From Halichondria panicea (Eukaryota; Porifera; Demospongiae; Suberitida; Halichondriidae), in NCBI RefSeq assembly GCF_963675165.1, contig NC_087387.1, positions 5,358,990 through 5,422,989 of the forward strand: DNA of 64,000 nt, in the 5' to 3' direction. Under the pieces are notes generated by a model. The model did no database searches. It saw nothing but the letters and a program-made list of their open reading frames with translations, and was not told the DNA's origin. The position numbers and the translations under genes are program-made. Positions 1 through 49,964 of this stretch are shown piece after piece (the first letter of the stretch is position 1; each line of letters begins with the position of its first letter).

Positions 1-519
1 CACATACATTGCGACCGAGCAATAAACTAGTGTTTCCTTTGCAGCTTCCACACAGAACACCAGTCCGATTTTTATCACAAATATCATCATTTGAAAAAGT
101 GAAGCTTCCCTCAGTAATACAGTATCTGTTAGGACAGCTTTCATACCAACTCATTGCTCCTTGATAATTAGGTTGATTTGCTGGTGCCCTCCAATAGCTT
201 TGAAATTCAATTTTCTTCTGATGTCATCCGTTATCTCACAGCTTTGTAGAAAGTTACTGATTTGCTTGTCACAGACACAGCTGGCATTATCTTGGTCTAG
301 TGGAAAGCCATTCGGGCATAACTCAAATAGTACATTTAGTTCCAGTACCTTCTCACCGTCTAGAAATGACTCGCCCACATTCAATATCAGAACTTCCATG
401 TTTGCCTTGGATTTCACAGTGAAGCTTACTTCATTACACTCTTTAGCGCTAACTCTTTGAAGCTTCCCGTCTGTAGTTAGAGAAGACGTCGTATTATCAT
501 CACTGTCAATCGATAACCA
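1..519 (-). pseudogene. Copy A: truncated beta-helix/multi-TM receptor-like gene fragment
   Basis: This is the 3'-ward part of one member of the array family, running off the left edge. Read on the minus strand it encodes the ectodomain segment from the IDSDDNTTSSLTTDGKLQ block through the Cys-rich CVCDKQISNFLQSCEITDD block to the NRTGVLCGSCK knot, at about 90% identity by eye to copies G and J. Two breaks are visible. At about position 216 a 4-nt deletion relative to the paralogues (CTTCTGATGTCATCC here, CTTCTGAAAGTTGTCATCC elsewhere) shifts the frame. At about 515-519 the homology stops and is replaced by spacer sequence ending in ACCATGCACACAAACAAC, which in intact copies lies upstream of a start codon. 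The first half of the gene is therefore missing. An ATG at 552 lies in spacer-derived sequence and makes an accidental open frame. I infer a deletion-born pseudogene. Confidence 0.85.
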
Positions 520-981
520 TGCACACCACACCATGCACACAAACAACAACATTGTGTCTCTCTAAGCTAGGCTCACCTCACCTCCACTAAAGTGAATGGG
601 TCTGCTTCTTGCAGGATAGCTAAATCAACTCAACTAGCTGTATCTACTACTAGTTTTAGCCATCATGTGACATAATTAGTAATTTCTAATGATATTTATA
701 TGGTGAGAAAAATGTCACTGCTAAGTTCATTCATTTTTGTTGGAGAAATGAATTGCGGGGCCAAATACTTACACAAGTTGAAGATGTAAATAATTAATCA
801 TGCTTCGTCTAAAACGATACAACACAGCTGACAATCTCTACAACAAACATAGCATCTACACAACATTAAAGACAGAGTCTCTATAGCACAACTATTAGAT
901 TTCAAAACAAAATGCTGGTACATCGTATTATAATTATAAGCAACAAAATCAACCGCTTTTATTTAGAGAGACAATCGAGTC
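520..981. other. Spacer between copies A and B
   Basis: There is no gene here. The sequence from about 525 to 981 aligns closely with 19010-19476, the spacer next to copy F, including the motifs ATGCACACAAACAAC, CACCTCCACTA, GTGGGTCTGCTTCTTGCAGG and the TATA module. It is one end of the segmental duplication that also contains copies B and F. Confidence 0.8.
663..757 (-). promoter_or_regulatory. Conserved TATA-containing spacer module
   Basis: On the minus strand this stretch reads through CATATAAATATCATTAG, a TATAAATA core, flanked by CATTTCTCCAAC and TTATGTCACATG. The same roughly 95-bp block recurs in every spacer of the left half of the array. Here it faces the truncated copy A. Core-promoter function is inferred from the TATA core, its conservation and its position upstream of start codons. 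Confidence 0.45.
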
Positions 982-3900
982 TCAATGTATTTGGCTTTCC
1001 AGTAATGGCTCTCTCAGATCAACTTGATATGTAGTGGTCATCTCAGCCACACTATGAGTAACTTTGTTAGCCTCCAATTCAGCTGGCTCATTTATAATTA
1101 GTTTTTGTTTCTTAATTACTCCAATTTTCTTGGTTAAAGCTTCCATCCTTTCCTTTAACATAGGAAGCTTCTTGAGTCGCCAGTAAACGTGCACAATTAT
1201 AATCCCGATAAAAGTTAGTAGTGCTATCGTAATCGATATGTATGTGGCGATTTCTCTATGACCGTTGATTGAAGAATTCAGAGAATATGAGGTAGCTGCT
1301 GCAAGCACACCTAGGTTCACCAAGAAGGACATCTCTAAGTGTGTCAATCCAACTCTTGTCATATATTCCTCCAGTCACCCTGAACATAGATATAGCAACA
1401 ATACAAGTGGTAATAATAGCAAGAAGGTTTATATGCCGATTTTCTCCGAATGCAAATAAAATTAGTAGCACGGCTCTCATCATGATACTAAGTCCTGCCC
1501 AGTAGCGATGGTTGGGTTTGAAAGGGATCAGGTATGCGTGTATGAAAGGCTGAAGTCTCAATCGTCGAATAATTTTTGAAATGAAATCACTTTTTTGTAA
1601 AACCTGTGCAGAGAACAGTACAAACATGTAGGGTGTCAGTAGCAATAGGAGAAACACTGATGCGACTATGATAAGAGTCAAATGATGCCCAGAGGCATAA
1701 TCAACGTTTCCGTCATATCTCCAAACTGCTGTTCTCATGTTTCCAGGGTTATTGATAGTCGAATAGTAGAAAATACTGATGATATTTTGGGCTAGTGAGT
1801 TGAAAGACAACAAGATTATGGTAGCAAGAACAGCTACAGGGTCACTGGTACTGAAAAACTTCGATACCCGTACAGAGTATCGGCATAGAACAACAATCAG
1901 GCCTGCTAGTATCCAGATGTAGACTGGGAATACGAACTGTAGTCCACTGTATGCAATCTGAGTCATGCCGTCGTAGAAACATGTTTCGATTCCGAAATCG
2001 AGGTTCAGCCATGATATGAAGATGGTATAGCTACGGAAGAATCCCTTTGGGAAGAACACGGTCTGATTGCTGTTCAAAATGTTTGCGTAGAAGATGAGTC
2101 CATTTATAGTTCCTGAAGCCACTGTCATTTGCAATAGGAAGATTAAAGCAACCACTAATATTCCAGCCACTGCAAAAACAACCAATAGTGCCAAGTATGC
2201 ATTATCTGAACAGTCCCCACACACATCTCCACCAAGCATTAAACTAGTGTTCATTTTGCAGCTTCCACACAGTACACCAGACCGATTGTTGTCACAAATA
2301 CCATCATTTGAAAAAGTGAAGTTTCCCTCTGTAATACAGTATCTGTTAGGACAGTTTTCATACCAACTCATTGCTCCTTGATAATTAGATTGATTTGCTG
2401 GTGCCATCCAATAGCTTTGAAATTCGATTCTTTTCTGAAATATTTCGTCCGTTATCTCGCATCTTTGCAGATAATTACTAATTTTCTCATCGCAGACGCA
2501 GCTGTAATTCTGTATGTCACTTGGAAAACCGTCTGGGCACAACTCGTTGAAATGTACATTTACATAAAGTGTTTTGTCATCATCCAGAAATGACTCGCCC
2601 ACATTCAACACAAGGACTTCCATATCTACCTCGGATTTCACAGTAAAACTGACACTCATGCATTTTTCAGGATTGGCACTTTGAAGCTTCCCGTCTGTAG
2701 TTAAAGAAGACGTCGTATTGTCATCAGTGTCGATCGATAATAAAGCAGACTGCAAATTCCTTCGAACTGGTTCTGACATATTGTCCCCATAAAATGTTAG
2801 AGTTCTTACCATCACAGAAAATGGTTTTCCTTTACTTGCTGATACGTTCAATGGAGCATTTTTTTCACAACTTTTTCTTGTATCGTTTTCACAGAAACAA
2901 AACCAATAGCTATCCGATGCAAATGCAGGTACTGAATTTCCTGACTTTACATTGAGTGTTTTATTCAAGTCCTTCAAAGCTGGATACGTAATCTCTGAAT
3001 TATCTATGACATCAAAGTTGACATGTATGACACTGCCCCCAGGGTATGCTTTGTTGTGTTGAAATGTGAGAGAAGCGTTAAGATTTCCAGGGTTGATAGG
3101 ACCAAACAAACACGTGTTCTGATCATTAATACACTGAACCTGGTCGACAGATGTTCCAATAAAAATGGCCCCTCCTTTTATTGCGGAGTTGTACTCAAAA
3201 AGGAGATTAGTTTCCTTATCGAGTTCAAGTCGACACTTTTGGTCGATAAAAATTGCCCCTCCAATCTTTGCTGAGTTATTTTTAAATATTCCATTTCCGC
3301 TAAACTTCACAATAGAAGTGAGTGTTGCGTACACTGCACCACCATCTTCATTGTCATAGAGATTTTCAATGAACAAATAATCGCCACCTAATGTTAGTGT
3401 ACTGTTTTGTACAATGGCAAGAGCACCATCTCTGTAGCCATCATCAATATTGTTACGATAAAAAGTTGAGTTGCCGTTTATATACAAATCGGAGTTCACA
3501 CCGAACACAATTCCAGCATTATCTTGAAAGTAGATCTGACCGTACAAGTGAATAATAGCATTGTACCCAGATAAAGGGGATCTTGAATTGTTTTTAAACG
3601 TTATATGACCATTGACTAATACTTGAGAAGTGTCAACTAGAATAAGCCTTTCACGAAGTATTGTATTATTAGAAGCTTTTAGTGTTCCGTTGAGGATGAT
3701 CAGTTTTGATCCTTTCGCCAGTGACATTATTTGAAATCCATTGTGATTACCATTCAGAAGTAGAGATGCTCCCTCCATTAAAGATATATTGGAGCCCACA
3801 GATTGAATTGATGTGATGTAACCTTTGTTTGCAACAGACTCAATTGTCCCATTTATATTTACTTGACTGTTACTGATATATAGTCCAGCAGTGGTTTTGT

Positions 3901-4786
3901 ATTTGTCACCAATCTCTTTATTATCAATGGAGTATAAAGTCCCGTGAAATTCCATGTTCACCTCACTCAGGAATAATGAACCACCTAGACAGACACGATT
4001 TCGATTAAATGACCAGTCTCCATTCACAACTGCCTCAACATTACTCAAGGCCATTACACCAAACGGTCCAACATTATCAGTCACATAAACACTCTCAGCT
4101 GTTAGGAAACCACCATCGATTCGAAATACCACCTCTTCTGCATTAGGGAAGCTGCTGTAGACACACTCAGAATCATATTCTCCAATACCGTTGTTAAAGA
4201 TGCTGAGGTCATTTAATGAGGTATTTCCTAAGTTTTGTATGCTGACAATTGTAGCAAGTGAGTTTTTGTTATTGGTAATCGCAAGGTTAGTGAGCTCAAC
4301 ATTTGAGCTGTCTTTAATGTAGAGAGCACCAGAGGTGGTGTTAGCTACACTGATGTCCATCATCTTCACTGTGTTGATGTTGGTCAAGCTGATACCAGGC
4401 AAATCACCTTCACCGCACAAAACAAAGGCCACATTCTGAATAGTTACGCTTGTCAAATCATTGAACGATAAAGTGGCATTTTGTCGACAGTAGATGGTGG
4501 TATTTTCAGTTCCGTTTAGAGAGAAGCTCTCGGTACTGGTACCATTTAATAAAAAGTCTGAATCGAGATAATATTGACCAGGAGTTAGTATAAACTTGGA
4601 AGGGAGGTAACTACTTGTATTGAGGGCATACTCAGACAAAGTCTGACAGTCGGGGAACTGATAGGAACAGGAGCACTCTAGATCTTGTTGGCAGCTGTCG
4701 GGTTTAACGTGAATCAGTTGCTCTTGGGCATTGCAAATAATCAGAATTGTTAGGAGTAGAAGTACTTTCAATCTTGTTGAAGCCAT
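982..4786 (-). pseudogene. Copy B: beta-helix/multi-TM receptor-like gene with one frameshift
   Basis: This is a single-exon member of the array family. The start is ATG at 4786 (MASTRLKVLLLL signal peptide) and the family stop follows LREPLLESQIH at 982. The order is signal peptide, Cys-rich CSCSYQFPDC, beta-helix-like ectodomain with GGAVY/GGAIF repeats, Cys knot NRSGVLCGSCK, about 8-10 membrane segments and a cytosolic tail. The product is nearly identical to copy F, so the two share a recent duplication. One extra base at about 1335-1337 (CATCTCTAAGTG against CATCTCCAGTG in F) shifts the frame inside the SWIDTLEMSF segment. It would remove the last two hydrophobic helices and the tail. 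The rest is open, so this could be a very young pseudogene, an allele or a sequencing error. Function of the family is unknown; a cell-surface protein is inferred. Confidence 0.88.
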
Positions 4787-4945
4787 GATCTTGATGCTTT
4801 AGCTATTAATTCAGTACACACTCAGACTGAAACAGAATTGAAAATACTGTATAAATTCAGATACACATGCAGTGTCACAAATTTAATGCACAGTGACACT
4901 GAAAGTCAAACCCAATGGCCTTTCGTTTTTATACTAACATGCATG

Positions 4946-5638: not shown

Positions 5639-5663
5639 TAATTATCTACAACTAGCTCTAGCC

Positions 5664-6012: not shown

Positions 6013-9000
6013 TCAATGTATTTGGCTTTCCAGCAATGGCTCCCTCAGATCAGTTACAGGTGTCAGCTCAGCCACGCTCTGTGTGACTTTGTTAGCCTCC
6101 AATTCAACCGGCTCATTTATAATTCGTTTTCGGCTCTTGATTAATTTTATTCCTCGTATTTTTTTAGCAAAAGCTTCCATCCTCTCCTTCACCATTGGTA
6201 GCTTCTTGAGTCGCCAGTAAACATGCACAACTATAATCCCGATAAAGGTTAGCAGTGCTATCGAAATCGATAAGTATGTGGCAATTGCTCTATGATCATT
6301 GATTGAAGAAATCAGAGAATATGAGGTAGCTGCTGCAAGCACACCTAGGTTCACCAAGAAGGACATCTCCAGTGTGTCAATCCAACTCTTGTCATATATT
6401 CCTCCAGTCACCTTAAACATAGTTATAGCAACAATACAGATGGAAATGATAGCAAGAAGATTTGTATGCGGATTATCTCCGGATCCGAATGCAAATATGG
6501 TTAGTAGCATGACTCTCATCAATAGACTAAGTCCTGCCCAGTAGCGATAGTTGGGTTTGAAAGGGATCAAGTATGCGTGTATGAAAGGCTGGAGTCTCAA
6601 TCGTTGAAGGATTTTCGAGATGAATTCACTTTTCTGCAAAAGTTGGGCCAAAAAAAGTACAAGTGTGTATGCCAGTAGCAATAGGAGAAACACTGATGCG
6701 ATTATGATAAGAGTCAAATGACGCCCAGAGGCAAAATCAACACTTCCGTCGAATCTCCAAACTACTGTTCTCGTGTTACCAGGGTGTTTGATGGGTGAAT
6801 AGTAGAAAAGGGTGAGGATATTTTGGGCTAGTGAGTTGAAAGACAACAAGATTATGGTAGCAAGAACAGCTACAGGGTCGCTGGCACTGAAAAACTTCGA
6901 TACCCGTGCCGAGTATCGGCATAGAACAACAATCAGGCCTGCTAGTATCCAGATATAGACTGGGAATACAAATAATAGTCCACTGTATGCAATCTGATTC
7001 ATGCCGTCGTAGAAACATGTTTCGATTCCGAAATCAAGGTTCAGCCATGATATGAAGATTGTATAGCCACGGAAGAATCCCACTGGGAAGAACACAGTTC
7101 GATTGCTGTTCAAAATGTTGGCATAGAATATGAGTCCATTTATAGTTCCTGAAGCCACTGTCATTTGCGATAGGAAGATTAAAGCAACCACTAGTATTCC
7201 AGCTAATACAAAAACAACCAATAGTGCCAAGTGTGCATTATCTGAACAGTCCCCACATACATCTCCACCAAGCATTAAACTAGTGTTCATTTTGCAGCTT
7301 CCACACAGTACACCAGACCTATTGTTAACACAAATATCATTGTCTGAAAAAGTGAAGCTTCCCTCTGTAATACAGTATCTGTTAGGGCAGCTATAATACC
7401 AACTCATTGCTCCTTGATATTTAGATTGATTTGCTGGTGCCATCCAATAGTTTTGAAATTCGATTTTCTTCTGAAAGTTGTCATCCGTTATCTCACAGCT
7501 TTGTAGAAAGTTACTGATTTGCTTGTCACAGACACAGCTGGCATTATTTACGCCAAGTGGAAAACCCTCTGGACACAACTCGTTGAAATGTACTTTTACA
7601 TAAAGTGTTTTGTCGTTGGACTCGCCCACATTCAATTTAAGGACTTTTGTGTCTGCCTTGGATTTCACAGTAAAACTGACAGTCATGCATTTTTCAGGAC
7701 TCACACTTTGAAGCTTCCCGTCAGTAGGTAGAAAAGACGTATTGTCATCAGCGTCAATCGATTCCAATGTAGACCGCAAATTCCTTAATCGAACTGGTTC
7801 TGACATATTGTCTCCATAAAATGTGAGCGTCCTCACCATCACAGAAAATGGCTTTCCCTTGCTTGCTGATACATGCATTAGATTTCTTGTACAACTTTTT
7901 CTTGAATCGTTTTCACAAAAACAGAACCAATAGTTATCAGATGCAAATGCAGGTACTGAATTTCCTGGCTGCACGTTGAGTGTTTCTTCCAAGTCCTCCA
8001 AAGCTGGATACGTAATCTCTGAGTTATCTATAATATCAAAGTTGACATGTATGACACTGCCCCCAAGGTATGCTGTGTTGTGTTGAAATGTGAGAGATAC
8101 GTTAAGACTTCCAGGGTTGATAGGACCAAACAAACACATGTTCGGATCAACACACTGAATCTGATTGACAGATGTTCCAATGAAAATGGCACCTCCGTTT
8201 ACGGCAGTGTTGCTTACAAAGTGTAGATTAGTTTCATTGTAGAGTTCAAGTCGAGATTGTTCCTCAAGGAAAATTGCACCTCCATTATTTGCTGAGTTAT
8301 TTTCAAATGTTCCGATTCCGCTAAGCTTAACAACAGATTGGGCTCTTGCATATATTGCACCACTGTCCACAACTTCATTTCTATTTTCAAGAAATGTATA
8401 ATTGCCACCCAGTTTTTCAAGCTGCTTTGATAAAATATAGCAAGAGCACCATCTTTGAAGCCATCATCAACATTGTTGCGATAAAAGGTTGAGTTACCGT
8501 CTATATCCAGATGAGAAGTCACAGCGAACACAACTCCAGCATTATCTTGAAAGTAGATCTGACCGTACAATTGAATAATAGCATTGTGCACAGAAAAAGG
8601 GGATTTTGAATTGTTGATAAATGTTGTATGACCATTGAATATCACTTGAGAATTGTTCACTAGAATAAGCCTTTGACGCATTGTGTTATTACAAGCCGTT
8701 AGCGTTCCGTTTTGAATTACCAGCTTTGTTCCTTCTGCCAGTGACATCGCTTGAAGTCCATTGTGATTACCATTCAGAAGTAGAGATGATCCCTCCATTA
8801 AAGATATATTAGAGCCCAGAGATTGAATTGATGTGATGTAACCTTCGTTTGCAATTGATTCAAGTGTCCCATTTATATTTACTTGACTGTTACTGAAATA
8901 TAATCCAGCATTGGAATTGTCTTTTTCGCTGATACCTTTGTTTTCATTTGATAATAAAGTCCCAGTTAATTCCATGATGACCTCACTCAGGAATAATGAA

Positions 9001-9797
9001 CCTAGACAAGCACGATTTAGTTTAAATGACCAGTCTCCATTCACAACTGCCTCAACATTACTCAAGGCCATTACACCAAACAGTCCAACATTATCAGTCA
9101 CATCAACACTCTCAGCTGTTAAGAAACCACCATCGATTCGAAACACCACCTCTTCTACATTAGGGAAGCTGCTGTAGACACACTCAGAATCATATACTCC
9201 AATACTGTTTCTAAAGATGTTGAGATTATTTAAACTCGTAACAATTGAGTTTTGTATGCTGACAATCGTAGCAAGTGAGTTTTTGTTATTGGTAATCGCA
9301 AGGTTAGTGACCTCAACATTTGAGCTGTCTTTAATGTAGAGAGCACCAGAGGTGGTGTTAGCTACACTGATGTCCATCATCTTCACTGTGTTGATGTTGG
9401 TCAAGCTGATACCAGGCAAATCACCTTCACCGCACGAAACAAAGGCCACATTTTGAATAGTTACGCTTGTCAAACCATTGAATGATAAAGTGGCATTTTG
9501 TCGACAGTAGATGGTGGTATTTTCAGTTCCATTTAGAGAGAAGCTCTCAAAACTGGTACCATTTATCGAAAAGTGTGAATCGAGATAATATAGACCAGGA
9601 GTTAGTATAAACTTGGAAGGGAGGTAACTACTTGTATTGAGTGCGTACTCAGACAAAGTCTGACAGTCGGGGAACTGGTAGGAACAGAAGCACTCTTGTG
9701 GGCAGCTGTCAGGTTTGACGTGAATCAGTTGCTCTTGGGCATCGCAAATAATCAGAATTTTTAAGAGAAGAAGTACTTTTAATCTTGTTGAAGCCAT
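6013..9797 (-). pseudogene. Copy C: beta-helix/multi-TM receptor-like gene with mid-gene frameshift
   Basis: The start is ATG at 9797 (MASTRLKVLLLL) and the stop after PLLESQIH is at 6013. The family layout is complete: signal peptide, CFCSYQFPDC, beta-helix-like ectodomain, YWFCFCEND block, NRSGVLCGSCK knot, membrane domain and long tail. Between about 8411 and 8440 the sequence between CACCCAG and AGAGCACC is 5 nt longer than in copy E. This shifts the frame after DGALAI, just before the GGAIF repeats. The upstream frame reads on out of register for about 75 codons to a stop near 8214. The downstream part stays open from about 8370 to the end. The ectodomain has a private block reading VNNSQVIFNGHTTF where D, E and F have VDTSQ-type sequence. 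It is probably non-functional unless the indel is an assembly error. Confidence 0.87.
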
Positions 9798-10427
9798 GAT
9801 CTGGATAAAATTGCTATTAATTTAGTACCCGCTCAGACTGAAATGTTAATTATTGGAATACTGTTACACACAATTAATACACATGCAGAGTCACACAAGC
9901 ACAGTGACACACTGAAAAGTCAAACCCACAATGGCCTTTTGTTTACTAACATGCACACACAGACAACATTGTTTATAGTCGAGTCTAGACCTCACCTCAA
10001 CTGTGTGGCTTCTCCAAAAGGGGGTGGGTCTACAGGCTATAGTAGATCAGAGGATTATTGTGACAAAGAACAGCTAACTACTTGTATTTCTACAACTAGA
10101 TCTAGCTATCATGTGACATAATCTAGTCACTTCTAATGATATTTATATGGTGAGAAGAATGCATATGTCACTGCTAAGTTCATTCATTTTAGCTGGAGAA
10201 AAGAATGCCAAAATTAATATCTACTTACACATGCAGTTGAAAAATTGATGCTTGTAAAACGATACAACAAAAGTCTAAAGCTTACAATCTCTACAGCCAA
10301 GAGAACATCTAAATCTAGCTACTCAGAAAGACAAAACAAAATGCATGTTGGTAGATCTACATGGTACTAACAATGTTATAAAAAACAACAAAATGAACAG
10401 TTTTTATATTATAGGGACAATCGAGTC
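9798..10427. other. Spacer between copies C and D
   Basis: A 630-bp spacer with no gene. It contains the 5' flank of copy C (CTCAGACTGAAATGTTAATTATTG), GTGGGTCTACAGGC, the TATA module and the 3' flank of copy D (ACAAAATGCATGTTGGTAG). Confidence 0.75.
10110..10207 (-). promoter_or_regulatory. TATA module upstream of copy C
   Basis: GATATTTATA at 10138-10147 gives TATAAATATC on the minus strand, about 340 bp upstream of the copy C start. If it is the core promoter, the 5' leader would be about 300 nt. Function is inferred from conservation among spacers. Confidence 0.45.
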
Positions 10428-13400
10428 TCAATGAATTTGGCTTTCTAGTAATGGCTCCCTCAGATCAACGTGATAAATTGCAGGGGTCAGCTCAGCCACG
10501 CTCTTAGTGACTTTGTTAGTCTCCAATTCAGGCGGCTCATTTATAACTCGTTTTTGTCTCTTGGCTAATTTAATTCCTCGCATTTTTTTGGCAAAAGCTT
10601 TCATCTTCTCCTTCAACATTGGCAGCTTCTTGAGTCGCCAGTAAATGTGCACAATTATAATCCCGATAAAAGTTAGTAGTGCTATCGTAATCGATAAATA
10701 TGTGGCAATTTCTCTATGACCGTTGATTGAAGAATTCAGAGAATATGAGGTAGCTGCTGCAAGCACACCTAGGTTCACCAAGAAGGACATCTCCAATGTG
10801 TCAATCCAACTCTTGTCATATATTCCTCCAGTCAACTTGAACATAGTTATAGCAACAATACAGGCTGTAATGATAGCAAGAAGGTTTATATGCCGACTTT
10901 CTCCAAGTGCAAATATGGTTAGTAGCATGACTCTCATCAGGAGACTAAGTCCTGCCCAGTAGCGATGGTTGGGTTTGAAAGGGATCAAGTATGCGTGTAT
11001 GAAAGGCTGAAGTCTCAACTGTCGAAGGACTTTCGAGATGAATTCGTTTTTTTGCAAAACCTGTGCAGAGAACAGTACAAGCGTGTATGGTGTCAGTAGC
11101 AATAGGAGAAACACTGATGCGACTATGATAAGAGTCAAATGATGCTCAGAGGCATAATCAACACTACCGTCATATCTCCAAACTGGTGTTCTCATGTTCC
11201 CAGGGTTATTGATAGTCGAATAGTAGAAGATACTGATGATATTCTGAGCTAGCGAGTTGAAAGACAACAAGATTATGGTAGCAAGAACAGCTACAGGGTC
11301 GCTGGTACTGAAAAACTTCGATACCCGTACAGAGTATCGGCATAAAACAACAATCAGGCCTGCTAGTATCCAGATGTAGACTGGGAATACAAATAGTAGT
11401 CCACTGTATGCAATCTGATTCATGCCGTCGTAGAAACATGTTTCGATTCCGAAATCAAGGTTCAGCCATGATATGAAGATGGTATAGCTACGGAAGAATC
11501 CCACTGGGAAGAACACAGTTTGATTGCTATTCAAAATGTTGGCGTAGAAGATAAGTCCATTTATAGTTCCTGAAGACACTGTGATTTGCATTAGAAAGAT
11601 TAAAGCAACCACTAGTATTCCAGCCACTGCAAAAACAACCAATAGCGCCAAGTGTGCATTATCTGAACAGTCCCCACATACATCTCCACCGAGCATTAAA
11701 CTAGTGTTCATTTTGCAGCTTCCACACAGTACACCAGACCTATTGTTAACACAAATATCATCATTTGAAAAAGTGAAGCTTTCCTCAGCGATACAGTACC
11801 TGTTAGGGCAGTTTTCATACCAACTCATTGCTCCTTGATATTTAGTTTGATTTGCTGGTGCCATCCAATAGCTTTGAAATTCGATTCTCTTCTGAAAGTT
11901 TTCGTCTGTTATTTCACAGCTTTGTAAAAAATTATTGATTTTCTCATCACAGACACAGCTGTAATTTTGTTCGTCACTTGGAAAACCATCTGGACACAAC
12001 TCATTGAAATGTACATTTACATAAAGTGCCTTCTCGCCATCAAGAAATGACTCGCCCACATTCAATATAAGAATTTCCATGTCTGCCTTGGATTTCACAG
12101 TGAAGTTTATTTCAGTACACTCTTTAGCGCTAACTCTTTGAAGCTTCCCATCTGTAGTTAGAGAAGACGTCGTATTGTCATCACTGTCAATCGATAATAA
12201 TGCAGACTGCAAATTCCTTCGAACTGGTTCTGACATATTAATATTCCCATAAAATTTGAGTGCTCTTACCATTACAGAAAATGGTTTTCCCTTGATTGCT
12301 GATACGTTCATTGGGGCATCATTTCTTGCACACCCTTTTCGTGAATCGTTTTCACAGAAACAAAACCAATAGCTATCAGATGCAAGAGTAGGTACTGAAT
12401 TTCCTGAAGCTATTTTAAATGTTTCTCCCAAGTCCTCCAAAGCTGGATACGTGATCTCTGAATCATTGATGATATCAAAGTTGACGTGCATGACACTGCC
12501 CCCAGGGTATGCTTTGTTGTGTTGAAATGTGAGAGAAGCGTTAAGATTTCCAGGGTTGATAGGATGAAACAAACACTTGTTCGGATAAGTAACACACTGA
12601 GCGTGGTCGACAGAAGTTCCAATAAAAATGGCACCTCCTTTTACTGCGGAGTTGTACTCAAAGAGGAGATTTGTTTCCTTGTCTATTTCAAGCCGAGACT
12701 CTTGATTAAGGAATATTGCCCCTCCATTCTTTGCCGAGTTATTTCGAAATATTCCATTTCCGCTAAACTTCACGGTAGATGTGACTGTTGCGTACACTGC
12801 ACCACCATCTTCATTGTCATAGAGATGTTCAATGAACAAATAATCGCCACCTAATGTTAGTGTACTGTTTTGTTGAATAGCAAGAGCACCATCACTGTAG
12901 CCATCATTAACATTGTTACGATAAAAAATTGAGTTGCCATTAATATTCAAATCCGACTTCACAGCAAACACTATTCCAGCATTATCTTGAAAGTATATCT
13001 GACCGTACAAGTGAATAATAGCATTGTACCCAGATATAGGGGATCTTGAATTGTTTTTAAACGTTATATGACCATTGACTAATACTTGAGAAGTGTCAAC
13101 TAGAATAAGCCTTTGACGTACAATTGTATTATTACAAGCTTTTAGTGTTCCATTGAAGACGATCAGTTTTGATCGTTCTGTTAGTGACATCACTTGAAAT
13201 CCATTGTGATTACCATTCAGAAGTAGAGATGCTCCCTCCATTAAAGATATATTAGAGCCCAGAGATTGAATTGATGTGATGTAACCTTTGTTTGCAACAG
13301 ACTCAATCGTCCCATTTATATTAACTTGACTGTTACTGATATATAGTCCAGCAGTGGTTTTGTATTTGTCACCAATCTCTTTATTATCAATGGAGTATAA

Positions 13401-14246: not shown

Positions 14247-14518
14247 GATCATAATCTGGATAAAATTAATGTTTTAGTTATTGATTTACATGTAGTACCG
14301 GCTCAGACTGAAACCTAATAGAGCTAATTATCGAGAATATATTTACACAAACAACACTGTTGAGTGCTATAATTATAGAAGCTCACCTCTACTATGTGGC
14401 TTCTTCAAAAGTGGGTGGGTCTGTTTCTGCAGGCTAATATAATAGCTACATGTAGATCATGTAGCTAGTAAATTACTCTCAACTACATGTATCTCCTATC
14501 ATAATACTAGTTTTAGCT

Positions 14519-18671: not shown

Positions 18672-18811
18672 GATCTGGAAAAAATTAGTTAGTACCACAT
18701 GCAGACTGAAACCCTAAGAATACTGTTAGATCTACATGTATAGTCACACACAGTTATTACACAGTGACACTGAAAAGTCAAACCCACAATGGCCTTTCGT
18801 TTTTACTAACA

Positions 18812-29147: not shown

Positions 29148-29214
29148 GATCTGGATAAAAAAGAGTATCTTTTACTGATTTAATATGTCAAGTCAGACGA
29201 GCCTAGCTATATCT

Positions 29215-34800: not shown

Positions 34801-35583
34801 AGGATAGAGTCCCCTGAAATTCAATGTTCACCTCACTCAAGAATAATGAACCACCTAGACAGACAAGGTTTCGTTCAAATAATCAGTCTCCATTCACAAC
34901 TGCCTCAACGTTACTCAAGGCCATTACACCAAACGGTCCAACATTATCAGTCACATAAATACTTTCAGCTGTAAGGATACAACCATCGATTCGAAACACC
35001 ACCTCTTCTGCATTAGGAAAGCTGCTGTAGATATACTCAGAATCATATTCTCCAATACTGTTGTTAAAGATGTTGAGGTTATTTAATGAGGTATTTCCTG
35101 AGTTTTGTATGATGACGATCGTAGCAAGTGAGTTTTTGTTATTGATAATCACGAGGTTAGTGAGCTCAACATTTGAGCTGTCTTTAATGTAGAGAGCACC
35201 AGAGGTGGTGTTAGCTACACTGATGTCCATCATGAGAGTGTGCGTAACGTCACCACAGTCGGCAATAAAGAAACAATCTGCACTTTATTTAAGTTGGAAA
35301 ACTCTGACCAAACTGATATAGCAGATGGTGACGGGGTACCTCTTTGTACACACCACTATGGGATATCGTTGATGTTCGTCAAGCTTATACCAGGCAAATC
35401 ACCTTCACCACACGAAACAAAGGCCACATTCTGAATAGTTACGCTTGTAAAACCATTGAACAATAAAGTGGCATTTTGTCGACAGTAGATGGTGGTATTT
35501 TCAGTTCCGTTTAGAGAGAAGCTCTCAGTGATGGTACCGTTTAGTGAAAAGTCTGAATCGAGAAAATATTGACCAGGAGCCAT
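31859..35583 (-). pseudogene. Copy H: multiply broken chimeric receptor-like pseudogene
   Basis: Family homology covers the whole interval but at least five lesions are visible. About 55 codons at the N-terminus, including the signal peptide, are missing: the start MA is joined directly to PGQYFLDSDF, while the 5' flank GTTCTAAGAGAATGG equals that of copy J. About 120 bp of foreign sequence replaces a few bases at about 35234-35356. A Trp codon has become TGA at 34883-34885. Relative to paralogues there is a 4-nt loss at about 32530 (GGAGACTAATGCAACT) and a 4-nt gain at about 32075 (ACTATATATAATCCC). The ectodomain is J-like (VDTSEMMVNGNIMF, GQVEFSMNAG), while the tail (IKKQKLIINEP...QIH) is B/F-like. 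So the copy is a recombinant as well as dead. Confidence 0.9.
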
Positions 35584-35637
35584 GTTCTAAGAGAATGGTA
35601 TATAATATTAACTTGGTACTACATGTATATCACAGTC

Positions 35638-35731: not shown

Positions 35732-35741
35732 ATCACAGTCA

Positions 35742-38985: not shown

Positions 38986-41163
38986 GTAGAATTATTACCA
39001 AAAACTGGTCCTCAAGCTACCTAACTCTCTGTTCTACACTAAACCTCCTGACTACTATAGCTACCAGAAGAAGAATACAGAAATTATAGTAAACTCTGTT
39101 ACAAGATACTAAAGGGTAAATCCTGCGTTCCACACTGCACCACACCCATGCACTATATAGCCTCGATTCCAGGCCACAGCTACACACTCAGTCTCTCTTC
39201 ATGCTGAGGGTTGTATAGTACTGCATAGGGTATTAAGACAGAGACTCCAGAGGCCAGACAAGCTTCGGTAAAGTGACCAAACATTAATTAATTAATTCTT
39301 GCATTCATCAAGCTTAGTATGGAGTTGGATATCCTTTAAGGAGATGCCAGACAGTTTGGCGGCAGACTTTCAATCCACTGCTTTCAAGGTGTACCATGAG
39401 TGCATGTCACTGTGCATATAAGTGGCAGCGATAGAAGGGCATGGGAAATACATAACTGTGTGCATGTATAGTTTGACTTTACTAGTATATTCTGGCCCCA
39501 CCTATAATTATATCGATAGGGGACCGGACACGTACATCACCTCAACTATGCACATATGCCATACACCTGGCACACAACACACACAATGCAATTACCTTAA
39601 CTGTGTTAGCTTTCACATGGCACACAAAACACATTGTTGCTGTGTGCCATGTTATACTACATATTTAAGGTAGTTGCATTGTGTGTGTTGTGTTCCAGGC
39701 GTATGGCACACAGCATAACAGTGTGTTTTGTGTGCCATGTGAAAGCCAACGTGCACAATGTCACTACCTAAAGCAGTAGTCTCACAATGCTACCACATAG
39801 TGCAGCATACCGATTCAATTTCAGCTTACATGGGCCACAATTATTAGACACAATACGAATGCAAATTTGGCAGTATATTTATGGTTGAACTGGTGCCTTA
39901 CTAGAAGAACATTGACTAACAAAAGCTAGTGAAAAGAAGAAAAGAGTGCAACATTCATTCAGCCAAGTGAGTTGAAATTAGATCACTATAGATCTCTGTT
40001 CTTACAGTTTTGTATGAGTCCTTATGGCAAGAATATCAGCACTGCATGTCCGAACTTACGTTTATTTTGTCTGACGACGATTGAAACCACGTATGATGTC
40101 TTTCAGTTAATGTAAAGCTACAAAGATACGTTAAAAAATTAGCTTTAAAATTAAATCATGTCTGTATCTTTTATAGTTTGAAGATATCAGTGTCCGACAT
40201 AATTATGATAACGTCCGATGATTAATATACTTTAGTTTATTATCAACAATTTAGGTCTAAGTGACTCGTAGTAAAGAGAGATTCCATGCACTGAACTGAA
40301 CTTGGAAGCTACATTTCTCCCACTAATATCAATCAGTAACGTAACATGAAACTAGCGGTATATATTAGTAGCTATATAGCTAGTAGGTATATAGCTATTA
40401 AATCGGAGACCACTTTTGGAGAAGCCAAAACTACTAGATCTATAGCTTATAGATGAGCATACAGATGAGCTTATAGTGAGCTTCATTCAGTGCATTGATG
40501 TATATGTTAGAGGGTTGATGTTAGTTTCACTTTGCTGTGCAGTGTGACACAGTGTAATTATGTGTGGCTATTACCAGGAGCAGATGAGGGGATGGAGCGT
40601 CTTACTACGCGGTGGATTCCGTATAGTCTAACCTTGTACAAATTATGCATATATGTCAAACCATAGGCTAAGTGTTGCAAACATTATTCATTGTGATATT
40701 AGATCAAACGTGTTATAATTATCAGCCACAGATGTGCAGAGCATTACAAACAAGGAAATGTGGTTAAGACAATAGTGAATCCGCAATACTATGCATAGCT
40801 CCATCATTATAGGCCCTAATAAATTATGCTCGGAATAATTTTAGGACATCAATGTCCATTTTTGGTAAAGATTTTTACATTAAGTTTTGCATAATGACCT
40901 TTTCGTGGCAAATTAATGCTGGATGTCTACGTCTTAATTTTGTCTACAGTCACATTCCTGATTTTTATGAGAAGAATCGTATTTTTTTATGAGAATAATA
41001 GGCAAATTTTTCAAGAATGAATAATGGGTGGAAAAAAAGCATAATTTATCAGGGCCTAATATTTATCTGCTTCTGCTATTACTTTTAGCAATTAGCTAGA
41101 CATATAGCTAGGCTAGCTTGCCTGACTCTGGTATAGTAAAAGATACTCTTTTTTATCCAGATC

Positions 41164-44100
41164 ATGGCTTCGAATTCAACAAGATTGAAAGTCCTTTTTC
41201 TCCTAACAATTCTGATTATTTGCAATGCCAAAGAGCAACTGATTCACGTCAAACCCGACAGCTACCCACAAAAGTGCTCCTGTTCCTACCAGTTCCCCGA
41301 ATGTCAGACTTTGTCTGAGTACGCACTCAATACAAGAAGTGACCTCCCTTCCAAGTTTATACTATCTCCTGGTCTATATTATCTTGATTCACACTTTTCG
41401 ATAAATGGTACCAGTACCGAGAGCTTCTATCTAAATGGAACTGAAAATACCACCATCTACTGTCGACAAAAACCACTTTATCGTTCAATGGTTTGACAAG
41501 TGTAACTATTCAGAATGTGGCCTTTGTTTCGTGCGGTGAAGGTGATTTGCCTGGTATCAGCTTGACCAACATCAACACAGTGAAGATGATGTACATCAGT
41601 GTAGCTAACACCACCTCTGGTGCTCTCTACATTAAAGACAGCTCAAATGTTGAGCTCACTAACCTCGTGATTACCAATAACCAAAACTCATTTGCTACGA
41701 TTGTTAGCATACAAAACTCAGGAAATACCACATTAAATGACCTCAGCATCTTCAACAACAGTATTGGAGTATATATACGAATCTGAGTGTGTCTACAGCA
41801 GCTTTCCTAATGCAGAAGAGGTAGTGTTTAGAATTGATGGTGGTTTCCTAACAGCTGAGAGTGTTGATGTGACTGATAATGTTGGACCGTTTGGTGTAAT
41901 GGCCTTGAGTAACGTTGAGGCAGTTGTGAATGGAGACTGGTCATTTGAACGAAACCTTGTCTGTCTAGGTGGTACTTTGGCCCTCAATAAAACAGAATTG
42001 CAATGTAGGGGCAATCTGTATTTTTTTGAGAATAAAGGAATCAACGAAAACAATAAATCTACTGCTGGACTTCTCTTGAACAACAGTGCCACACTTAACT
42101 TAACAGGAAACATTAAGTCAAGTGGAAATGAAGGATATAATATTATGTCAGTTCAATCAATTTCCTCACACATATCCACGATAAGAGGAGTGCTTAATCT
42201 AACGAGCAATCCGGGTGATTGTAAAGGCATCTCATTAACGAGGGATTCGAAATTGACAATTAAGGATGGAGCCCTAGTAGTTCATAACAACGTGTTTCGC
42301 CGGCAAATAATTTTGGTTGATAACTCGGAACTTTCGGTCAGTGGAATTGTATCAGTTGTTAATAATCCATCGCAAATTGTTGTGTACAATGGAAAACTAA
42401 CTCTACGTGGCGACATCCAATTTCAAGGGAACGCTATTTCAAGGGTATGCTTCACGGTCAACGATTAATATAAGCGGTAATTCCACTTTCACAAGTAACA
42501 ACATAAAAGATAATTTTAAAGGTGGTACTCTTACTGTAATACAAAGCACTTTATTAGCATACCCTGGGGGCAGCGTTATACATGTGAACTTTTACCACAT
42601 AAAAACTCTTGACGTTGAGTAAACTGCTTTAATTGACTTGAATCGAACAATAACTTCACTCACCAATAATTCAGTCCCCATGTTTACATCCGACAGCTAC
42701 TGGTTTTGCTTTTGTGAAGATGATCGAGAAAAGTGCTCTGACAGATCTCAGAATATAACTGCATTCAAAGGAGAGAGATTCTCTGTAAAAGTCAGAGCTA
42801 TCAAATTCTACGGGAGCAATATGTCAGAACCGGTACGAAGCACTTTAGAGTCTTCCCGAGAGCAAGTGGATATTGGGGATCTATCAATTACTGCCTCTCT
42901 TATCGGGAACGATGGTAGGCTACTAAGTGTTAGCGCAACGGAGTGCACCAGCATTAACTTCACGGTTAAATCTTCGGCAGACAATGAAGTAATTATTATG
43001 AATGTTGGCGAATCATTTTTTGATATGGAGAAGTCGTTGAAAGTGAATGTTAATCTAAACCCCTTTTGTCCTGATGGATTTCCATTCAATGAGAAGCGGG
43101 ACTCTTGCGTCTGTGATGAAAGCATCAAGAAATTTCTACTCAGCTGTGACGTTAACGATAAATTTCAGAAGAGAATAGAGTATCCAGCATTTTGGATGGG
43201 GCCTGCAAATGACTCCACGTATCAAGGTGCCGTAAATTGGTATGACAAATGTCCTCATCGTTTCTGTATCACAAGTGGCACATTTACTTTTTTGGATGAT
43301 GGTATTTGTGACAACAATAGGTCTGGTGTACTGTGTGGAAGCTGCAAAGGAAACACTAGTTTATTGCTCGGTAGTGATGTATGTGTGGACTGTTCAGATA
43401 ATGCATGGTTGACACTATCGGTTGTTTTTGCAGTGGCTGGAGTACTAGTGGTTGCTTTAATCTTCCTATCTCAAATGACAGTGGCTTCAGGAACTATAAA
43501 TGGACTCATCTTCTACGTCAACATTTTGAACAGCAATCAAGCTGTGTTTTTCCCAGAGGGATTTTTCCGTGGCTATACCATCTTCATATCATGGCTGAAC
43601 CTCAATTTCGGAATCGAAACATGCTTCTATGAAGGCATGAATCAGATTGCATACAGTGGACTACTATTTGTATTCCCAGTCTACATCTGGATACTAGCAG
43701 GCCTGATTGTTGTTCTATGCCGATACTCTGTATGGGTATCGAAGTTTTTCAGTACCAGCGACCCTGTAGCTGTTCTTGCTACCATAATCTTGTTGTCTTT
43801 CAACTCACTAGCTCAGAACATCATCAATATTTCTTACTATTCATCAAAAACCCTGGTAGATCTAACATGAGAACGGTAGTTTGGAGATATGACGGAAACG
43901 TTGATTATGCCTCTGGGCATCATTTGACTCTTATCATAGTCGCATCAGTGTTTCTCCTATTGCTACTGGCATACACACTTGTACTGTTCTCTGCACAAGT
44001 TTTACAGAAAAATGATTTCATCTCAAAAATTCTTCGACGGTTGAGATTTCAACCTTTCATACACGCATACCTGATCCCTTTCAAACCCAACCATCGCTAC

Positions 44101-44616
44101 TGGGCAGGATTTAGTCTCCTGATGAGAGTCATGCTACTAATTATATCAATTGCATTTGGAAAAAATCAGCATATAATCTTCTTGCTATCATTACCACTTG
44201 TATTGTTGCTATAACTATGTTCAAGGTGACTGGAGGAATATATGACAAGAGTTGGATTGACACACTGGAGATGTCCTTCTTGGTGAACCTAGGTGTGCTT
44301 GCAGCAGCTACCTCATATTCTCTGAATTCTTCAATCAACGGTCATAGAGAAATTGCCACATATAATTATATCGATTTCGATAGCACTACTAACTTTTATC
44401 GGGATCATAATTCTGCACATTTATTGGCGACTCAAGAAGCTGCCAATGGTGAAGGAGAGAATGGAAGCTTTTGCCCAAAAAATGCGAGGAATTAAATTTG
44501 CCAAAAGACAAAAACAAAAGATAACGATAATCAATCCGACTAAATTGGACGGTAAGAAGGTTTCTCGAAGTGTAATTCGAATGAGTGTTCTAAGGGAGCC
44601 ATTACTAGAAATCTAA
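41164..44616 (+). pseudogene. Copy I: inverted, mosaic and multiply broken receptor-like pseudogene
   Basis: This is the only plus-strand member. The start MASNSTRLKVLFLL is at 41164 and the family end LREPLLEI at 44616. Frame breaks are visible at about 41474 (1 nt lost in CAAAAACCAC) and about 41768 (GGAGTATATATACGAATC). There is an in-frame stop at 42620-42622, and further shifts near 43855, 44150-44215 and 44360. About 600 bp of the GGAIF repeat region is missing between about 42540 and 42560. The first 820 bp and the region 43260-43850 are near-identical to the array. The stretch 41985-43250 is much more diverged (for example LNKTELQCRGNLYFFENKG, SSADNEVIIMNVGESFFD). This suggests an old copy with its ends overwritten by gene conversion. 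Confidence 0.88.
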
Positions 44617-45630: not shown

Positions 45631-48600
45631 TCAGCTTTCCAGTAATGGCTCTCTTAGAACAGGCTGGTACACTGCTCTCATTTCAATTACACTTTGAGTA
45701 ACTTTCTTACTCTCAAATTTAGTCGGCTTGTTAATTGTTAGCTTTTGTTCTGGCACTTTATCCTTCAACACTGGCAGTTTCTTGAGTCGCCAGTAAATGT
45801 GCACAATTATAATCCCAATAAAAGTTAGCAGTGCTATCGAAATCGATATAAAAGTAGCGATTTCTCTATGAGAGTTGATTGAAAAATTCAGAGAATATGA
45901 GGTAGCTGCTGCAAGCACACCTAGGTTCACCAAGAAGGACATCTCCAGTGTGTCAATCCAACTCTTGTCATATATTCCTCCAGTCACCTTGAACATAGAT
46001 ATAGCAACAATACAGGCCGTAATGATAGCAAGAAGGTTTATATGCTGGTTTTCTCCAAATGCAAATATGGTTAGTAGCATGACTCTCATCAGGAGACTAA
46101 GTCCTGCCCAGTAACGATGGTTGGGTTTGAAAGGGATCAAGTATGCGTGTAGGAAGGGCTGAAGTCTCAATCGTTGAAACATTTTCGAGATAAAATTGCT
46201 TTTCTGCAAAATTTGAGCTGAAAAAAGTGCAAAGGTGTATGGTGCCAGTAGCAATAGGAGAAACACTGATGCGACTATGATAAGAGTCAAATGATCCTCT
46301 GAGGCATAATCAACACTTCCATCATATCTCCACACTCGTGTTCTATTGCTCCCTGGGTTTTTGATGGATGAATAGTAGAAAATATTGATGATATTTTGGG
46401 CTAGTGAGTTGAAAGACAACAAGATTATGGTAGCAAGAACAGCTACAGGGTCGCTGGTACTGAAAAACTTCGATACCCGTACAGAGTATCGGCATAGAAC
46501 AACAATTAGGCCTGCTAGTATCCAGATGTAGACTGGGAATACAAATAGTAGTCCAGTGTATGCAATCTGATTCATGCCGTCGTAGAAACATGTTTCAATT
46601 CCGAAATCGAGGTTCAGCCATGATATAAAGATGATATAGCCACGAAAGAATCCCTCTGGGAAAAACACAGTTTGATTGCTGTTCAAAATGTTTGCGTAGA
46701 AGATGAGTCCATTGATAGTTCCTGAAGCCACTGTGATTTGCGATAGGAAGACCAGAGCAACTACTAGTATTCCAGCCGCTGCAAAAACAACCAATAGTGC
46801 CAAGTATGCATTATCTGAACAGTCCCCACAAACATCTCCACCAAGCATTAAACTAGTGTTCATTTTGCAGCTTCCACACAGTACACCAGACCGATTGTTA
46901 ACACAAATATCATCGTTTGAAAAAGTAAAGTTTTTCTCTGTAACACAGTATCTGTTAGGACAGCTTTCATACCAACTCATTGCTCCTTGATAATTAGGTT
47001 GATTTGCTGGTGCCATCCAATAGCTTTGATATTCGATTTTCTTCAGAAAGACGTCGTCCGTTATCTCACAGCTTTGCAAATACTTACTGATTTCATTGTC
47101 GCAGACACAGCTGGCATTATCTTCGTCAAGTGGAAAACCATTTGGGCATGGCTCAAATATTACATTTAGTTCGAGTGCTTTCTCACCATCCAGAAATGAC
47201 TCGCCCACATTCAATATCAGAACTTCCATATCTGCCTTGGATTTCACAGTGAAGCTTACTTCATTACACTCTTTAGCGCTAACTCTTTGAAGCTTCCCAT
47301 CTGTAGTTAGAGAAGATGTTGTATTGTCATCAGTGTCAATCGATAATAAAGCAGACCGCAAATTCCTTCGAACTGGTTCTGACATATTAATATTCCCATA
47401 AAACTTGAGTGCTCTCACCATCACAGAAAACGGTTTTCCCTTGATTGCAAAGATGTCTATAGGAGGATCATTTCTTGCACAACCTTCTCGTGAATCGTTT
47501 TCACAGAAACAAAACCAATAGCTATCAGATGCAAGAGCAGGTACTGAATTTCCTGAAGCTATTTTAAATGTTTCTTCCAAGTCCTTCAAAGCCGGATACG
47601 TTACCTCCAAATTATCTACGATATCAAAGTTGACATGTACGACACTGCCCCCAGGGTATGCTTTGTTGTGTTGAAATGTGAGAGAAGCGTTAAGATTTCC
47701 AGGGTTGATAGGACCAAACAAACACGTGTTCAGATCATTAATACACTGAACCTGGTCGACAGATGTCCCAATAAAAATGGCACCTCCTTTTACTGCAGAA
47801 TTATTCACAAAACGGAGTTCAGTTTCATTGTAGAGTTCAAGCCGAGACATTTGATCGAGGAAAATTGCACCTCCATTTTTTGCTGAGTTGTTTTCAAATT
47901 TTCCAATTCCGCTAAACCTAACAACAGACGTGAGTATTGCAAATATTGCACCACCGTTTGCATTTTCATATCTATTTTCAAGAAACGTATAATTTCCATT
48001 CAAATTGAGGGTACTTTGTTGAATAGCAACAGCACCCTCTTTGTAGCCATCAGCAACATTGTTATGATAAAAAGTTGAGTTGCCGTTTATATCCAGATCA
48101 GACCTTAGAGTATACAGAACTCCTGCATTCATGGAAAACTCGATTTGACCATTCAAGAGAATTTTAGCAATGTAACCAATAAGAGGAGATTTTGAATTGT
48201 TGATAAACACGATATTACCATTGACTATCATTTCAGATGTATCAACTTTAATGACACGTTTACGAAGAGTGTTATTACAAGCCATTAGGGTTCCGTTGAG
48301 GATGATCAGTTTTGATCCTTCTGCTAGTGACATCACTCCAGCTCCGTGATTACCATTCAGAAGTAGAGTTGATCCCTCCATTAAAGATATATTAGAGCTC
48401 ACAGAATGAATTGATGTAATATAACCTTCGTTTGAGATTGATTCAATTGTCCCATTTATATTTACCTGACTGTTTTTGAAATATAGTCCAGCAGTGAATT
48501 TTTCATTTTCACTGATCTCCTTATTTTCAATGGAGGATAGAGTCCCCTGAAATTCAATGTTCACCTCACTCAGGAATAATGAACCACCTAGACAGACAAG

Positions 48601-49383
48601 GTTTCGTTCAAATGACCAGTCTCCATTCACAACTGCCTCAACGTTACTCAAGGCCATTACACCAAACGGTCCAACATTATCAGTCACATAAATACTCTCA
48701 GCTGTTAGGACACCACCATCGATTCTAAACACCACCTCTTCTGCATTAGGAAAGCTGCTGTAGATACACTCAGAATCATATTCTCCAATACTGTTTTTAA
48801 AGATGCTGAGGTTATTTAAACTTGTAACAGTTGAGTTTTGTATGATGACGATCGTAGCAAGTGAGTTTTTGTTAATGGTAATCGCAAGGTTAGTGAGCTC
48901 AACATTTGAGCTGTCTTTAATGTAGAGAGCACCAGAGGTGGTGTTAGCTACACTGATGTCCATCATCTTCACTGTGTTGATGTTGGTCAATCTGATACCA
49001 GGAAAATCACCTTCACCGCACGAAACAAAAACCACATTCTGAATAGTTACGCTTGTCAAACCATTGAACGATAAAGTGGCATTTTGTCGACAGTAGATGG
49101 TGGTATTTTCAGTTCCGTTTAGAGAGAAGCTCTCAGTGATGGTACCATTTAGTGAAAAGTCTGAATCGAGATAATATTTACCAGGAGTTAGTATAAAATT
49201 GGAAGGGAGGTCACTACTTGTACTGAGTGCGTACTCAGACAAAGTCTGACAGTCGGGGAACTGGTAGGAACAGGAGCACTCTTGTGGGCAGCTGTCGGGT
49301 TTGACGTGAATCAGTTGCTCTTGGGCATCGCAAATAATCAGAATTGTTAGGAGAAAAAAGACTTTCAATCTTGTTGAAGCCAT
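45631..49383 (-). CDS. Copy J: intact beta-helix/multi-TM receptor-like protein, second tail type (1250 aa)
   Basis: An intact single-exon copy starting MASTRLKVFFLLTILIICDA at 49383. It has the signal peptide, CSCSYQFPDC, a beta-helix-like ectodomain with NGGAIF and KGGAIF repeats, CFCENDSREGC, the NRSGVLCGSCKMNTS knot, the multipass domain and the short tail KDKVPEQKLTINKPTKFESKK ending LLES. It shares the VDTSEMIVNGNIVF and GQIEFSMNAG block with G and H. Its 5' flank (GTTCTAAGAGAATGG onward) is shared with pseudogene H rather than with G, so promoter and coding histories differ. It is the rightmost copy; beyond it lie unrelated intron-containing genes. Function is unknown; a cell-surface role is inferred. 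Confidence 0.91.
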   Translation of the reverse strand: MASTRLKVFFLLTILIICDAQEQLIHVKPDSCPQECSCSYQFPDCQTLSEYALSTSSDLPSNFILTPGKYYLDSDFSLNGTITESFSLNGTENTTIYCRQNATLSFNGLTSVTIQNVVFVSCGEGDFPGIRLTNINTVKMMDISVANTTSGALYIKDSSNVELTNLAITINKNSLATIVIIQNSTVTSLNNLSIFKNSIGEYDSECIYSSFPNAEEVVFRIDGGVLTAESIYVTDNVGPFGVMALSNVEAVVNGDWSFERNLVCLGGSLFLSEVNIEFQGTLSSIENKEISENEKFTAGLYFKNSQVNINGTIESISNEGYITSIHSVSSNISLMEGSTLLLNGNHGAGVMSLAEGSKLIILNGTLMACNNTLRKRVIKVDTSEMIVNGNIVFINNSKSPLIGYIAKILLNGQIEFSMNAGVLYTLRSDLDINGNSTFYHNNVADGYKEGAVAIQQSTLNLNGNYTFLENRYENANGGAIFAILTSVVRFSGIGKFENNSAKNGGAIFLDQMSRLELYNETELRFVNNSAVKGGAIFIGTSVDQVQCINDLNTCLFGPINPGNLNASLTFQHNKAYPGGSVVHVNFDIVDNLEVTYPALKDLEETFKIASGNSVPALASDSYWFCFCENDSREGCARNDPPIDIFAIKGKPFSVMVRALKFYGNINMSEPVRRNLRSALLSIDTDDNTTSSLTTDGKLQRVSAKECNEVSFTVKSKADMEVLILNVGESFLDGEKALELNVIFEPCPNGFPLDEDNASCVCDNEISKYLQSCEITDDVFLKKIEYQSYWMAPANQPNYQGAMSWYESCPNRYCVTEKNFTFSNDDICVNNRSGVLCGSCKMNTSLMLGGDVCGDCSDNAYLALLVVFAAAGILVVALVFLSQITVASGTINGLIFYANILNSNQTVFFPEGFFRGYIIFISWLNLDFGIETCFYDGMNQIAYTGLLFVFPVYIWILAGLIVVLCRYSVRVSKFFSTSDPVAVLATIILLSFNSLAQNIINIFYYSSIKNPGSNRTRVWRYDGSVDYASEDHLTLIIVASVFLLLLLAPYTFALFSAQILQKSNFISKMFQRLRLQPFLHAYLIPFKPNHRYWAGLSLLMRVMLLTIFAFGENQHINLLAIITACIVAISMFKVTGGIYDKSWIDTLEMSFLVNLGVLAAATSYSLNFSINSHREIATFISISIALLTFIGIIIVHIYWRLKKLPVLKDKVPEQKLTINKPTKFESKKVTQSVIEMRAVYQPVLREPLLES

Positions 49384-49964
49384 GTTCTAAGAGAATGGTA
49401 GAATATAAACTTGGTACTATACATGCATGTATATCACAGTCATGCAATTGCACAATGCCACACATGCATGCAGTATAGGTGTTACAATTAATTTGATATA
49501 GATCTAGCTCGATTTAATTAATAAAAAAGTTTAGATTAAATCTCATGCACTGCATTATAGGCTACAGTATGCATGAGTATATAATATACACCTTATGCAC
49601 ACGTACTGCTAGCTTGTCTGGTCTGAAGTAATAGCAGCTCACCTATATTGTAGATTTAACTATTTAGCCTGCATGATCTAGTAAGTCTAGCTATTGTAAC
49701 TGCTGATGTATAGCTTATTACACTATTTATGGGTTATGTGGGAGGCTTCCTTCATAGTTGAACAATGAATACCATTAGACCTATACCCTCTCCCACACAC
49801 ATCATGCAGAATGGAAGCTGCATCAACAACATGCATCAATCATCACTAGATCACAAGAATTAATATTGCCGTGTTTTAGTGATGTAATCAATTACAACAA
49901 ACTCAGTGAGAGCGAGAATTTGCTAGCCTAATAATAAGTTGACCCCAAAAAACCAAAAAAATTG
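49384..49964. other. 5' flank of copy J, edge of segmental duplication
   Basis: No gene. It is near-identical to the H flank at 35584-36280 apart from the palindromic insertion there. At about 49431-49441 it preserves the empty insertion site TATATCACAGTCATGC. Confidence 0.75.

Follow-up and report, generated by a model that had tools for sequence, protein, structure and literature searches.

A tandem array of beta-helix genes with a multipass membrane module in the sponge Halichondria panicea, and the larger genome-wide family to which it belongs

The stretch of 64,000 nucleotides from the sponge Halichondria panicea analysed here (the window) raises the question of how a run of long, related genes for putative surface proteins arose, how far it extends, and what such proteins might do. 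The original prediction described ten copies, of which five were intact, two carried single frameshifts and three were fragments or mosaics. A tblastn comparison of copy C with the window recovered the same tally over positions 2-49383 (Table 1), bearing out the description of a clustered, expanding and decaying surface-protein locus. Chance can be excluded as an explanation for the array, since 300-bp blocks were found in eight copies at 74-100% identity. Copies E and A share 97% protein identity. The array continues to the left of the window, where a further intact copy (L008, C11:5353360-5357160) is 72% identical to copy C. Furthermore, it lies inside a 6.8-Mb contig (C11) of the 131-Mb, 39-contig assembly and thus does not represent a contig-edge artefact. 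Ten Wnt matches in this genome (best E 5.3e-54), spread over separate short frames in the manner of exons, support its animal nature, whereas none of 14 control genomes gave such a match.

Between the copies, a 15-bp tandem repeat of 15 units separates copies D and E (18810-19033), and a 52-bp repeat of 2.2 units lies between copies A and B (5516-5627). In the interval from 29.2 to 41.1 kb, for which a transposon origin was considered, the frames of at least 70 aa comprise fragments of copy G along with short frames. Beyond the array, all on the minus strand, are two long frames (50497-51081 and 51665-53965) with no Pfam match at E 0.01, an adjoining kelch-repeat frame (59022-59960; Kelch_1, 3.6e-21) and a nearby protein kinase frame (60152-61390; Pkinase, 1.9e-29).

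Table 1. Copies of the array in the window and the parts of reference copy C (residues in copy C numbering).
Feature	Position	Strand	Description	Basis
Edge fragment	2..522	-	residues 684-859, two frames; runs on left of the window	tblastn
Copy A	985..4789	-	one frameshift near residue 1153	tblastn
Copy B	6016..9800	-	one frameshift near residue 466	tblastn
Copy C	10431..14252	-	intact, 1274 aa, reference copy	tblastn
Copy D	14859..18674	-	intact, ATG at 18671	tblastn
Copy E	19480..23274	-	intact	tblastn
Copy F	25398..29150	-	intact, ATG at 29147	tblastn
Copy G	31862..35604	-	broken, several frames, one TGA	tblastn
Copy H	41161..44610	+	inverted, broken, mosaic of segments 39-97% identical	tblastn, inverted repeats
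Copy I	45634..49383	-	intact	tblastn
Copy C, acceptor-like pyrimidine tract and CAG	14253..14272	-	ends 3 nt before ATG	
Copy C, putative signal peptide	14187..14252	-	residues 1-22	hydropathy only (hydrophobic 2-20)
Copy C, predicted right-handed parallel beta-helix	12615..14072	-	residues ~61-546	predicted structure; Chlam_PMP repeat near residue 527-543
Copy C, stalk	11754..12614	-	residues 547-833	model pLDDT <50 over nearly the whole length
Copy C, juxtamembrane Cys-rich motif	11667..11753	-	residues 834-862	alignment; DUF7630-like in some other members
Copy C, membrane module	10653..11651	-	residues 868-1200	hydropathy: ten hydrophobic segments
Copy C, C-terminal motif LREPLLE	10443..10463	-	residues 1264-1270	conserved in alignment

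Each intact copy encodes about 1,250-1,275 aa in a single uninterrupted coding frame, in which a putative signal peptide, a beta-helix, a stalk of ~290 residues, a Cys-rich juxtamembrane motif, ten hydrophobic segments and a short tail follow one another. The predicted joining of a beta-helix ectodomain to a multipass domain with a short tail therefore holds. Of the GGAIF-repeat beta-helix ectodomain of about 840 residues, the beta-helix stands, but it accounts for only ~485 residues, the remainder being stalk.

The copies of the array make up a single clade within a far larger, genome-wide family with about 200 members or more. A DNA pattern back-translated from a membrane-module motif is found 222 times in the 131-Mb genome, compared to a single occurrence of its reversed control, and a stricter motif (W-L-N-L-D-F-G-I/M) 27 times, compared to none; these counts refer to modules, broken ones included, and miss variants. 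Searching the genome with copy C gave at least 43 stretches (36 of 506 first-look candidates scored), while the divergent module of locus L027 gave at least 92 matches on at least 16 contigs, 35 of them on contig C6 (92 of 409 candidates scored; L027 itself is counted, the window copies are not). Of these 92 matches, 74, the query included, lie in frames of 1,000 aa or more, and five contain a stop codon. A frame of 2,847 aa at C6:3203926 (L041, C6:3196400-3206300) was rejected as an artefact of an upstream run of N read as open, hence 74 and not 75. The modules are also clustered: among the 100 places listed of the 222, all on contigs C1-C6, 75 have a neighbour within 30 kb, compared to 9.6% expected if 222 places were scattered at random.

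In a tree of 33 rows, copies A, B (membrane half), C, D, E, F and I form one clade together with L008 and the dispersed locus L004 (C16), with support of 100/100, and its sister is L011 (C9). When seven module-carrying relatives were scanned against Pfam, Chlam_PMP was found in five (over the cut-off in four) and Beta_helix in two, both of which also carry PMP; L026 showed only DUF7630 below the cut-off and L014 no match. A Chordopox_A35R match in L033 (E 3.4e-4; 21 bits, with the cut-off at 27) was taken as chance. Outside this genome, searches of viral contigs and genome contigs with two peptide patterns each, of limited sensitivity, confirmed no relatives. Two further observations concern the organization of the family. 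In C6:1272764-1489851, pairs of modules on opposite strands, ~2.6-2.8 kb apart, recur several times (e.g. 1389446+/1392257- and 1479600+/1482411-) and look like a duplicated two-gene unit. L020 (C5:6041269-6042675) is a fragment that matches residues 1-468 at 69% identity and is interrupted by twelve stop codons; it resembles a pseudogene of the array clade that was dispersed long ago.

In regard to the growth of the array, the 800-bp flanks of copies A-E and of L008 match one another, some of them running into the adjoining copy. Since such matches extend beyond the coding sequence, covering for instance 489 columns at 80% upstream of B and E and 491 at 88% downstream of A and E, the array grew by tandem duplication at the DNA level. 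The flanks of F, I and L004 gave no match to the array flanks. After duplication, gene conversion or recombination has likely homogenised both ends of the genes more than the middle, because three patterns in the alignments point in this direction. The first is uneven dS, which is about 0.08-0.19 at residues 1-240, reaches 0.77 in mid-protein and is 0.15-0.33 in 60-codon windows over 871-1200; the second is long shared runs, with p<=0.005 in 12 of 21 pairs by a shuffle test that ignores regional differences in rate; the third is that different parts of the copies give different trees.

Across the 28 pairs of eight copies, the mean dN/dS of the helix was 0.38, that of the stalk 0.21 and that of the membrane part 0.27, with 0.35 in the tail (21 pairs), and the highest mean in any 60-codon window of the eight copies was 0.60. 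In our own implementation of the M1a/M2a test, p was 0.0135 for residues 61-250, 0.17 for both 251-430 and 431-610, 1 for the stalk and 0.0015 for the membrane part. We regard this signal as equivocal and do not count it as positive selection, because the copies are mosaic. The check for positive selection that had been suggested together with the original prediction thus gave no clear pattern of diversification focused on the ectodomain, M2a being favoured weakly in residues 61-250 and more in the membrane part.

These results bear on two alternative explanations of the locus. It could be a self/non-self (allo-)recognition locus, as the clustered, mosaic and decaying copies and the expanded repertoire would suggest. 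We consider this very unlikely, given that the selection tests show no ectodomain-focused pattern, that homogenisation is among the strongest in the N-terminal third of the ectodomain, and that the wider family is spread over at least 16 contigs instead of forming a single locus. Alternatively, the expansion could be a mostly neutral birth-and-death process in which copy number has little functional meaning. Half of the ten copies in the window are broken and dN/dS of 0.2-0.5 indicates moderate constraint only, yet most matches to the L027 module retain their long frames and mean dN/dS stays below 1 in every 60-codon window, so that this explanation also appears improbable.

The genes had been called intronless, which is true of the coding frame, but their starts suggest an intron in the 5'UTR. 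A YAG preceded by at least eight pyrimidines in 12 positions ends 3 nt before the ATG in five of seven starts in the window (C, D, E, F and I), while copy B has seven pyrimidines and copy A no such tract; as a background, 33 of the 2,661 ATGs in the window (1.2%, the five copies included) carry the same tract at -3. Copies F and I keep it despite upstream flanks unlike those of the other copies. Among 21 loci listed, the tract stands at -3 in seven and within 44 nt in 12, and there is none at L016, L017, L019, L021-L024, L026 and L027 (for L026 the analysis covered only 6 nt upstream, and the ATG chosen in L024 and L027 is doubtful). An intron in the 5'UTR is thus likely for the array subfamily, judging from the tract itself, with spliced-leader addition as the alternative. 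A retroposed origin of the dispersed L004 was considered and is not supported, as this locus keeps the acceptor-like tract before its ATG, which a spliced copy would be expected to lack.

For the membrane half of the proteins, an alignment of thirteen family members, 34-86% identical to the first, extends over 460 residues. It contains 34 invariant columns, which span the Cys motif and the membrane region and include polar or charged positions within or beside membrane segments. Averaged hydropathy of the alignment shows ten hydrophobic segments. Judging by the balance of K+R to D+E, loops 157-172 (2.8/0.6) and 246-283 (6.4/1.2) would lie inside and loop 192-226 (1.3/2.7) outside, while the tail is only slightly basic (13.6/11.3). 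An outside N-terminus and these loop charges fit an odd number of crossings, so that the best reading of the module would be nine crossings and one further segment, re-entrant or amphipathic. An AlphaFold2 model of the module from ten rows, all from the window, reached a pLDDT of 34.3, i.e. no usable fold.

The original prediction did not recognise a named family with this architecture, and searches of Pfam (13 members) and of PDB sequences found none for the membrane part. Pfam matches up to E 10 included no convincing family for the module, no transporter or channel at a credible score, no GPCR family and no TRP-like PF06011; the best match of the set was DUF7630 (E 0.0026, in four of the 13 members), which is limited to the Cys-rich segment preceding the first helix. 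A PDB profile search with the membrane alignment found nothing credible, its best hit (E 0.65) falling on a repetitive charged stretch. With 150 of 349 candidates scored, DUF7630 (PF24633) exceeds the Pfam cut-off at no fewer than four further places in the genome, and two of these overlap with members recovered by the L027-module search; it also occurs below the cut-off in L036 (19.2 bits), as it does in L026, with no match in the three window copies scanned.

A conserved membrane half could mean that the proteins are transporters or channels, in which this module does the work and the beta-helix serves as a sensor, filter or cap. In keeping with this, a comparison of 16 representatives drawn from 26 long frames shows the membrane part to be the more conserved in all 120 pairs (mean 42.3%, compared to 30.5%), invariant polar or charged columns lie at the membrane segments, and the number of crossings is about nine. 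However, the Pfam and PDB searches returned no credible transporter, channel or relative, and hundreds of copies with divergent ectodomains would better fit a repertoire than a housekeeping transporter, which makes this explanation rather unlikely.

At the end of the tail, LREPLLE or a close variant was found in 24 of 36 loci, some of which are pieces of one copy. The 12 misses consist of eight broken or partial copies, one locus with a different longest frame, and three true misses (L027, L033 and L035). The motif differs in spacing from the consensus of the canonical acidic-dileucine signal. The tails of L034 and L036 (C6) carry LREPALD followed by a conserved PLTTEDYRPAPPPP, proline-rich and tyrosine-containing extension, which the window copies do not have.

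As for the ectodomain, the modelled helix has the coils of a parallel beta-helix, which places it in the right-handed beta-helix (pectin-lyase-like) superfamily. PF02415 (Chlam_PMP) matches all three window copies scanned (1.6e-7, 6.2e-7 and 3.6e-7), and the NCBIfam POMP_repeat matches both copies scanned below its cut-off, while no autotransporter domain matched in the three window copies or in the seven relatives, and the C-terminal region is a series of hydrophobic segments in place of a beta-barrel. In Foldseek, no PDB structure matched the modelled helix at an E-value of 1e-3 or lower, a PDB sequence search with a whole copy found nothing, and adhesin or self-associating beta-helices, namely antigen 43, PfbA and Vag8, are among the structural matches of the model. 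These matches, together with the large, stalked ectodomain and its many sequons, are compatible with adhesion or matrix anchoring, where homotypic or matrix-binding beta-helix proteins would serve cell sorting and tissue assembly. On the other hand, nine passes are unusual in a simple adhesin and a common fold proves no function, and we consider pure adhesion unlikely. The proteins of the family are probably glycosylated.

We propose, with a probability of roughly 0.45, that the family comprises surface, probably endocytic, receptors or adhesins with a ligand-binding beta-helix. The ectodomain would face outside and the tail inside, with nine crossings between them. The helix could bind extended ligands along its side, with microbial glycans or those of the animal's matrix as the most likely candidates, although beta-helices may also act as enzymes or purely as scaffolds. 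The membrane module would be an anchor and perhaps transduce a signal or move the ligand, and LREPLLE might couple the protein to trafficking adaptors, as expected of an endocytic or phagocytic receptor or adhesin. Duplication and gene conversion would offset the steady loss of copies to pseudogenes and so keep their number high. A role in microbe or self/non-self recognition is possible.

A bolder version, which we hold to be fairly unlikely, is an undescribed class of animal surface receptors, in which ~200 or more genes with uninterrupted frames, combining a bacterial-type PMP beta-helix, an unclassified nine-pass module and a tail signal, would form a repertoire that distinguishes microbes, food and self. 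Their 5'UTR exon and intronless coding frame would resemble those of chemoreceptor genes of which one is expressed per cell. Were the family to serve as a repertoire for recognition or uptake, it would represent a large animal surface-gene set so far without a name, with no Pfam family found for its membrane half, and offer a concrete, testable way in which such an animal could sort cells and particles. Should it serve adhesion alone, the constant combination of a beta-helix with a nine-pass module would still be an architecture not met in the literature searched.

Expanded families of surface proteins are already a known kind in invertebrates. Sponge SRCR genes are likewise an expanded, lineage-specific set of surface receptors (PMC10855680), and the family studied here differs from them in its ectodomain, its uninterrupted coding frame and its multipass anchor. 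Our literature search, beyond which most subscription journals lay, found no paper on a beta-helix and nine-pass family. Neither this combination nor a name for the membrane module was found in Pfam or in the literature searched. The Cys-rich motif resembles DUF7630, a motif of 45 residues, in its position directly before the first membrane helix. Compared to pectin-lyase-like beta-helix proteins, such as phage tailspikes, alginate epimerases and lyases, and Vag8, the helix has only 8-14% identity and is fused to a membrane module. The ectodomain is also similar to that of the chlamydial Pmps, which likewise form a multigene family and whose GGAIF-type repeats recur here in a modelled right-handed beta-helix. 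Pmps are autotransporters with a C-terminal beta-barrel, whereas the proteins of the array end in a helical multipass domain and a tail, and are encoded in an animal genome.
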